From NCBI GenBank assembly GCA_003963075.1, contig RXJV01000036.1, forward strand, positions 81,953-145,952: a stretch of DNA of 64,000 nucleotides. Direction: 5' to 3'. Numbering within the stretch: position 1 is the stretch's first letter; every line of letters begins with the position of its first letter. The DNA comes from Burkholderiales bacterium (GTDB lineage Bacteria > Pseudomonadota > Gammaproteobacteria > Burkholderiales > Burkholderiaceae_C). Made by a program: the position numbers and the translations under genes. Below the pieces are notes generated by a model. That model saw only the letters and a list, made by a program, of their open reading frames with translations. It was not told the DNA's origin and ran no database searches. Positions 42,976 to 44,796 of this stretch are shown one piece after another.

Positions 42976-44076
42976 ATGCCAGTTTCCGTTCTGCACTGTG
43001 CCTCGGCCGGCTTCGAGTCGGCCTGCCGCATCCCGGCCCTGCCCGCCTCGCACCGCAGCCACGGCCTGCACGGCCACAGTTATTTCGCCACGGTACGCAG
43101 CGCGCTGGCCGCCGGCTGGGCACCGTTTCCCGGCGGCGAGGTGGACGCGCTGCGGGCCCGCATGGCCGACACCGTGGCCCCGCTGGACCATCAGCTGCTG
43201 AACGACCACCTCTCCGAGCCCACCGACGAAAACCTCGCCCGCTGGGTGCGCGCCCACCTGGCCGCCGACGTGCCCGGCATCGTGCAGGTCGGTGTGCAGA
43301 GCACCACGCACAGCGGCGTGGACCTGGACAACGCCGGCCATGCGCATGTATGGCGGCGCTACCGCTTCCAGGCCGCGCACCAGCTGCCCAACGTCCCCGC
43401 TGGCCACCAGTGCGGGCGCATGCACGGCCATGGTTTCGAGGTCATCCTGCATGCCAACGCCGACCTGGGCGAGCGCGACCTGTCCATCGACTACGACCAC
43501 CTCGACGAGGTCTGGGCACCGCTGCACTTCGAGCTGAACTACCGCTGCCTGAACGACATCCCGGGCCTGCAGAACCCCACCAGCGAGCACCTGTCGGCCT
43601 GGCTGTGGGCGCGGCTCAAGCCGCTGCTGCCGGAGCTGAGCTGGGTGACGGTCTACGAGACCGGCTCCAGCGGCGCCAACTTCAACGGCCAGAGCTACCG
43701 GATCTGGAAGGAGATGACGCTGGACAGCGCCGTTCGGCTGCGCCATGCACCCGGCGGCCACCCGCTGGCCGGCACGCACGGCCACACCTTCACGCTGCGC
43801 CTGCACCTGGCCGCGCCGCTGGACGCGGTGATGGGCTGGACCGTGGACTTCGGCGACGTGAAGGCGTTGTTCAACCCGATCTTCAAGCGGCTGGACCACC
43901 ACCCGCTGTACGAGATTGCCAACCTGCCCGACGGCGACGCGGCCAGCGTGGCTACCTGGGTGCTGAACGAGGGCGGCGCCGTGCTGCCGCAGATCGACCG
44001 CGTGGACCTGTACGAAACGCGCGGCTGCGGCGCCATCGTGAGCCGGGCCGACTCGGAGGAGCTGATTCCGGTATGA
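42976..44076 (+). CDS. queD: 6-carboxy-tetrahydropterin synthase (QueD/PTPS), apparent three-repeat fusion
   Basis: Three HGH-containing PTPS-like repeats: HGLHGHSY..LDHQLLND; FQAAHQLPNVPAGHQCGRMHGHGF..LNDIPGLQNPTSE..VYETG; GTHGHTF..RLDHHPLYE..LYETRG. Confidence 0.85.
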   Translation: MPVSVLHCASAGFESACRIPALPASHRSHGLHGHSYFATVRSALAAGWAPFPGGEVDALRARMADTVAPLDHQLLNDHLSEPTDENLARWVRAHLAADVPGIVQVGVQSTTHSGVDLDNAGHAHVWRRYRFQAAHQLPNVPAGHQCGRMHGHGFEVILHANADLGERDLSIDYDHLDEVWAPLHFELNYRCLNDIPGLQNPTSEHLSAWLWARLKPLLPELSWVTVYETGSSGANFNGQSYRIWKEMTLDSAVRLRHAPGGHPLAGTHGHTFTLRLHLAAPLDAVMGWTVDFGDVKALFNPIFKRLDHHPLYEIANLPDGDAASVATWVLNEGGAVLPQIDRVDLYETRGCGAIVSRADSEELIPV

Positions 44077-44093: not shown

Positions 44094-44160
44094 GGGCCGC
44101 CCCAAGCCAAAGCGCGATCCCCTCGGGGGATCGGCCGGCGTACCCGACGGACGAGGGGCT
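44094..44160 (+). repeat. Hairpin-forming dispersed repeat between queD and queE
   Basis: GGCCGCCCCAAGCC...CGATCCCC-TCG-GGGGATCG (perfect 8-bp stem 44115..44133)...GAGGGGCT. Confidence 0.6.
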
Positions 44161-44163
44161 GAC

Positions 44164-44796
44164 ATGTATTCGGTCAAAGAACTCTTCTACACGCTGCAAG
44201 GCGAGGGCGCCCAGGCGGGCCGGGCCGCGGTGTTCTGCCGCTTTGCCGGCTGCAACCTCTGGAGCGGCCGCGAGCAGGACCGGGCCACGGCGGTCTGCAG
44301 CTTCTGCGACACCGACTTCGTCGGCACCGACGGCGAGGGCGGCGGCAAGTTCGCCACGGCTGACGCACTGGCCGATGCCATCGTCAAGGCCTGGCCCGAC
44401 CGCGACGGCGGCCGGCGCTACGTGGTGTGCACCGGCGGTGAGCCGCTGCTGCAGCTGGACACGCCGCTGATCGACGCGCTGCACGCCCGCGGCTTCGAGG
44501 TGGCCGTGGAAACCAACGGCACCCAGCCCGCGCCGCCGGGGCTGGACTGGATCTGCGTCAGCCCCAAGGCCGACGCGCCGCTGCTGCTGACCTCGGGCCA
44601 CGAGCTGAAGCTGGTCTACCCGCAGCCGCTGGCCCAGCCGGAGCGCTTTGCCGCGCTGAACTTCCAGCACTTCTTCCTGCAGCCGATGGACTCGGTGCTG
44701 CAGCGCGAGCACACCAAGGCCGCCGTGGCCTACTGCATGGCCCACCCGCAGTGGCGGCTGTCGGTGCAGATGCACAAGGTGGTGGGGATTGCTTGA
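44164..44796 (+). CDS. queE: 7-carboxy-7-deazaguanine synthase (radical SAM)
   Basis: FYTLQGEGAQAGRAAVFCRFAGCNLW; CSFCDTDF; CTGGEPLLQLD; ETNGTQ. Confidence 0.93.
   Translation: MYSVKELFYTLQGEGAQAGRAAVFCRFAGCNLWSGREQDRATAVCSFCDTDFVGTDGEGGGKFATADALADAIVKAWPDRDGGRRYVVCTGGEPLLQLDTPLIDALHARGFEVAVETNGTQPAPPGLDWICVSPKADAPLLLTSGHELKLVYPQPLAQPERFAALNFQHFFLQPMDSVLQREHTKAAVAYCMAHPQWRLSVQMHKVVGIA

Follow-up and report, generated by a model that had tools for sequence, protein, structure and literature searches.

Introduction

QueD, an enzyme with a PTPS domain, helps to make the tRNA modification queuosine and is normally built from separate small subunits. The Asp-His dyad of a PTPS active site comes from another subunit. 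The title of a 1995 paper by Burgisser, cited in PMC7546909, speaks of an "intersubunit catalytic triad". In the usual QueD architecture, which the function itself does not require and which is exemplified by the proteins of Escherichia coli (PDB 4NTK) and Pseudomonas aeruginosa (2OBA), subunits with one domain of ~120 aa assemble as a dimer of trimers, and the six equivalent sites are formed between identical subunits.

A close precedent for such a fusion is the bimodular QueF of Vibrio cholerae and E. coli, an enzyme of the same pathway and of the T-fold superfamily, in which the Cys/Glu and the QueF motif are split between the modules so as to form one interdomain site, and in which the T-folds were fused without keeping the central tunnel (PMC5372742). 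In a second precedent, the monomeric herpesvirus (EBV) dUTPase, a trimer with shared sites has given rise to a one-chain enzyme that has only one site (PMC8961515). Urate oxidase (uricase) likewise combines T-fold domains within a single polypeptide. Among open-access papers, the only ones covered, we found none on a tandem or fused QueD, nor any on a fused QueD with a single site. Here, we describe such a protein, which is both real and widespread.

Results

A QueD Chain of Three Unequal Repeats

The gene lies in the window, by which we mean the whole 64-kb stretch of Burkholderiales DNA that was analysed. The features of the locus, in window positions, are the following.

42976..44076, + strand: triple-repeat queD ORF; ATG at 42976, stop codon at 44074-44076, 366 aa
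42976..43341, + strand: repeat 1 (R1), aa 1-122; PF01242 37.8 bits; degenerate
43342..43695, + strand: repeat 2 (R2), aa 123-240; PF01242 83.6 bits; catalytic half-site
43696..44049, + strand: repeat 3 (R3), aa 241-358; PF01242 58.3 bits; complementary half-site
43411..43413, + strand: codon of the catalytic-type Cys146 (R2); invariant in 180/180 chains
43894..43899, + strand: codons of Asp307-His308 (R3); invariant in 180/180 chains
44164..44796, + strand: queE, the next gene, 87 bases downstream; TIGR04508 370.8 bits against a cut-off of 240

The original prediction of a 366-aa chain with three PTPS repeats was exact in its coordinates and length, and Pfam finds the PTPS domain (PF01242) three times along the chain (E 3.5e-52). 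Cut apart, R1, R2, and R3 each exceed the curated cut-off of 22.4 bits singly. They are separated by linkers of ~4-5 residues and are, respectively, 29%, 43%, and 35% identical to E. coli QueD; their mutual identity is only 22-26%, and hence the fusion must be old. The NCBIfam QueD equivalog TIGR03367 scores the whole chain at 149.8 bits, well over its cut-off of 89.25, because the scores of the repeats add up; R2 by itself attains 66.7 bits, which is below that cut-off, and the whole chain does not reach the broader TIGR00039 (103.3 versus 125.5). The architecture has thus been hidden by annotation, since single-domain models score the repeats together as one QueD.

The catalytic residues named in the original prediction are all correctly placed, and they are unevenly distributed among the repeats of the window protein. 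R2 has the zinc ligands His135, His150, and His152 together with Cys146, Glu204, and Glu228 (in VYETG), and its own Asp-His has become N188-Y189, followed by R190. R3 keeps D307-H308-H309 and E347 and has V253 at the position of the first zinc His and L264 at that of the Cys. R1 keeps the HGH (H32, H34) and D71-H72 and has C17 at the first zinc His, S28 at the Cys, and S109 at the Glu. A His at the first zinc-ligand position (His16 of E. coli) is therefore found only in R2 (H135). The glutamate of the PTSE motif (E204), invariant in R2, is replaced in R3. We take this PTSE Glu to be the pterin anchor and the Glu of VYETG, for which pterin binding had been proposed, to correspond to the Glu133-like residue near the metal in rat PTPS. 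The R2 signature, C146-GRM-H150-G-H152, has the CxxxHGH form that is the motif of PTPS-I (PMC5041015). Assignment of R2 to PTPS-II (biopterin) or PTPS-III (folate) was rejected, as the corresponding CxxxxxHGH and ExxHGH motifs are absent from its CGRMHGH, in which Gly147 occupies the position of the ExxHGH Glu (motifs from PMC5041015).

Between the triple queD and queE there is a near-perfect GC-rich palindrome of 20 bases (GCGATCCCCTCGGGGGATCG, 44114-44133), present as a single copy in the window, where 0.04 would be expected by chance. PADLOC gave no defence-system match.

One Complete Site per Chain

A search for homologous triples of ~360 aa, as had been proposed, showed that the architecture recurs in 180 distinct (non-identical) chains, and conservation was counted in their alignment. 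In R2, the residues H135, C146, H150, H152, E204, and E228 are each present in 180/180 chains, as are G151 and the whole of P201-T202-S203-E204; in R3, the same is true of D307-H308, W288, and D291. The first zinc His is found in 0/180 chains in both R1 and R3, and the Cys in 0/180 in R3 and in just 8/180 in R1 (it is missing in 172). The Asp-His dyad occurs in R1 of 36/180 chains, in R2 of 39/180, and in R3 of 180/180; at the R1 position, Tyr replaces the His in 134. Each of the 180 chains thus holds one set of three zinc His, Cys, Asp-His, and Glu, split between R2 and R3. Since only R2 plus R3 yields the full residue set in every chain, there is one complete site per chain. Retention of the R2 set and of the R3 dyad is what would be expected if the dyad comes from another subunit and the spare copies decay.

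These counts uphold the idea that the chain is a covalent pseudo-trimer whose composite site takes the Cys (with the zinc ligands and the Glu) from one repeat and the Asp-His from another. The expected loss of sites relative to a true trimer also stands, but the "one or two" that had been envisaged becomes one per chain in all 180. What does not hold is the notion that each repeat supplies a different part, for there is no catalytic residue, among those tested, that R1 provides in a consistent manner.

R1 nonetheless retains its HGH in 180/180 chains, and it is not obvious how this would follow from a role that is structural alone. The strongest coupling in the whole 180-chain alignment also lies in R1, between residues 17 and 36 (codons 43024-43026 and 43081-43083), which are paired as C17 with Y36 in 49 chains, C17 with F36 in 12, and R17 with F36 in 113; residue 113 is likewise coupled with them. 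The HGH and this coupled alternative might conceivably mark a second, noncatalytic pocket, holding a metal or a pterin or contacting QueE/QueC, which would regulate or feed the R2/R3 site, although we consider this rather improbable.

Predicted Fold and Contacts between the Repeats

An AlphaFold2 model, computed from an alignment of 25 triples (pLDDT 93.3, pTM 0.90), confidently predicts the arrangement of all three repeats in the chain, each with two strands, two helices, and two further strands in succession, as in a T-fold. In a Foldseek search of the PDB, a single repeat matches solved QueD with a TMt of 0.94. No solved structure with three such repeats in one chain came up in this fold search, whose matches were confined to single domains and, weakly, to uricase and GTP cyclohydrolase IB; uricase, with two T-folds per chain and no zinc, was among the nearest multidomain matches, with a TMq of at most 0.36.

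Contacts between repeats were sought by a mean-field coupling analysis of the 180 chains (effective number ~112), a comparison that favours chain neighbours and whose blocks were chosen after the question was known. The expected contact of strand 4 with strand 1 was recovered from R1 to R2 and from R2 to R3 (98th-100th percentile). Coupling of the Glu/turn region with helix 1 of the following repeat is high from R2 to R3 (98th-100th percentile), from R1 to R2 (94th-100th), and from R3 to R1 (80th-94th); in the backward direction, it falls to the 18th-23rd percentile from R2 to R1, the 11th-18th from R1 to R3, and the 72nd-76th from R3 to R2. Omitting the home genus together with the short-form clade leaves this pattern in place. 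Between the zinc loop and the Asp-His loop, whose residues hardly vary, the coupling is no more than middling from R2 to R3 (49th-74th percentile) and is very low from R2 to R1 (1st-3rd). Taken with the predicted fold, the couplings support a placement of R2 facing R3, not R1, be it in the same chain or across a head-to-head dimer.

We therefore have good confidence in a QueD of the PTPS-I type that derives from three fused ancestral subunits and would form a pseudo-trimer with one complete R2+R3 site per chain. Before the fusion, the site would have lain between identical subunits, one giving the zinc ligands, Cys, and Glu and another the Asp-His. Head-to-tail fusion of three such subunits would have created a single chain with a pseudo-trimeric fold, and subsequent decay of the redundant copies would have left a single complete site. 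In the present protein, R2, with its Cys146, would bind the zinc and the pterin, R3 of the same chain would supply Asp307-His308 to this site, and R1 would serve as the structural third of the barrel. As bimodular QueF has fused its T-folds without a tunnel, a closed barrel is not required in the triple QueD.

The same composite site could, however, be completed across chains, from R2 of one and R3 of the other in a head-to-head dimer of pseudo-trimers, in which case the monomer would be inactive and the dimer would have two sites. PTPS sites do lie among three adjacent monomers of a head-to-head dimer of trimers (PMC7546909), and the joint loss of the R2 Asp-His and of the R3 Cys and zinc ligands would fit such a reciprocal pairing; yet the cyclic couplings of each repeat to the next, including R1 to R2 and R3 to R1, are not predicted by it, with the proviso that the Asp-His loop is itself outside those couplings. 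We regard completion across chains as a serious but less probable arrangement; since it concerns a detail of the favoured reading, the confidence that it deserves overlaps with the confidence in that reading.

Far less probable is a third arrangement, in which R2 is an ordinary QueD domain that is completed by D71-H72 of R1 or needs no Asp-His at all, the R3 dyad being kept for other reasons. The window protein does have D71-H72, and all chains keep the R1 HGH, but an R1 dyad present in only 36/180 chains, against 180/180 for R3, led us to reject R1 as the Asp-His donor, and the couplings from R2 to R1 are at the 1st-23rd percentile. Of the two partners originally suggested for Cys146, conservation favours D307-H308 over D71-H72.

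Gene Neighbourhood and Other PTPS Genes

The home genome (95.65% complete) also encodes FolE (GTP cyclohydrolase I), QueC, QueF, and Tgt (tRNA-guanine transglycosylase). Across 80 triple loci, queE is nearby in 70, as a rule immediately downstream of the triple gene, and queC is nearby in 38, mostly immediately upstream; these are the same genomic partners that ordinary QueD has. A separate queD copy performing the canonical job would have counted against the original prediction; one was looked for, and no second PTPS was found in the home genome outside the triple locus. When 46 other triple-bearing genomes were re-searched with PF01242, 45 had no PTPS beyond their triple locus or loci, the exception (G039) having one extra single-domain PTPS gene.

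Two of the three repeats are degenerate and R2 scores only 66.7 bits against the TIGR03367 cut-off of 89.25, as might be the case in a paralogue that is no longer a QueD and has acquired some other role, as a different pterin enzyme or as a scaffold. We hold this to be very unlikely for the only PTPS of genomes that have the pathway, a protein whose gene adjoins queE/queC and whose catalytic residues in R2 and R3 are invariant. The triple QueD is, instead, probably functional as a 6-carboxy-5,6,7,8-tetrahydropterin synthase.

Single-domain QueD-like proteins of family f44 (L083, L085, L086, L087, L088, and L089) occur in the same order; they have Arg at the E. coli His16 zinc-ligand position (e.g. 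LEAARRL) and keep the other catalytic residues. In several genomes (G112, G153, G225, and G344), such a protein is the sole PTPS match.

Distribution and Origin of the Triple QueD

All 19 of the same-genus genomes (19/19) carry the triple QueD, at 80-94% identity. Of 399 genomes sampled from the order, 79 have a match with an E-value of at most 1e-15, mostly with triples of ~330-375 aa and otherwise mainly with single domains. In a wider scan of contigs, 565 stretches matched; the best 80 of these 565 are all triples, and they include Chromatiaceae, Methylococcaceae, Competibacteraceae, and Thiotrichaceae as well as one Magnetococcales, one Nitrospinota, and one Planctomycetota bin. The triple QueD is found in Burkholderiales, Chromatiales, Methylococcales, and elsewhere, in several phyla, and its occurrence within the sampled class and in further orders is patchy; Roseateles and Pelomonas are the closest named relatives among the matches listed. 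Recurrence in 180 non-identical chains and several phyla argues that the architecture is not due to chance. A misassembled tandem repeat or annotation artefact, which nothing but the unusual length would suggest, is refuted by these homologues, with the same architecture in independent genomes and repeats just 22-26% identical, and its probability is negligible.

The phylogeny of the repeats that had been called for was computed from 111 repeats and 8 single domains, with few columns and with many of the inner forks left open. All R1 sequences group together, as do all R3 sequences, in each case with 100/100 support, and the R2 sequences fall together apart from an unresolved base. Because R1 and R3 are each one group, a single ancient triplication behind all the triples would be the simplest reading of the tree.

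Two genomes, G018 (L030) and G126 (L042/L093), have two triple QueD genes each. In G018, the second copy shares only 66% identity with the window protein and has a Cys in R1; the copies in G126 are 61-66% identical to it. A possible remnant (L096, in G094) comprises ~113 aa of R1, 55% identical and with a TAG stop; G094 has no further triple match among the matches listed. Candidate triples in phages and plasmids were rejected, their multipiece matches spanning only ~360-420 bases, that is, single QueD domains that match all three repeats.

Discussion

The kind of enzyme is already known: it is QueD, with the PTPS domain and the zinc, Cys, Asp-His, and Glu set of the ordinary protein. The ordinary QueD, however, has equivalent sites between identical one-domain subunits, whereas the triple chain has three unequal repeats and one site; it is hence classed as a variant architecture of QueD and not as an ordinary member. 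Bimodular QueF, with its tandem domains, is a close precedent in pathway and fold, but it has two modules and is a different enzyme with a different reaction. The EBV dUTPase is of an unrelated fold, and it arose with a rearranged motif order and by duplication rather than by plain triplication.

An enzyme whose sites lie between subunits appears to have been converted into one that consists of a single chain. Enzymes with sites at subunit interfaces cannot be mutated site by site, because every subunit carries every mutation; in the triple QueD, evolution has separated the half-sites and removed the spares, and each half-site can therefore be tested residue by residue. After bimodular QueF, which shares its pathway and fold, it would be a second example of a fusion followed by a division of labour, and it represents a widespread family that is usually the sole QueD of its hosts.
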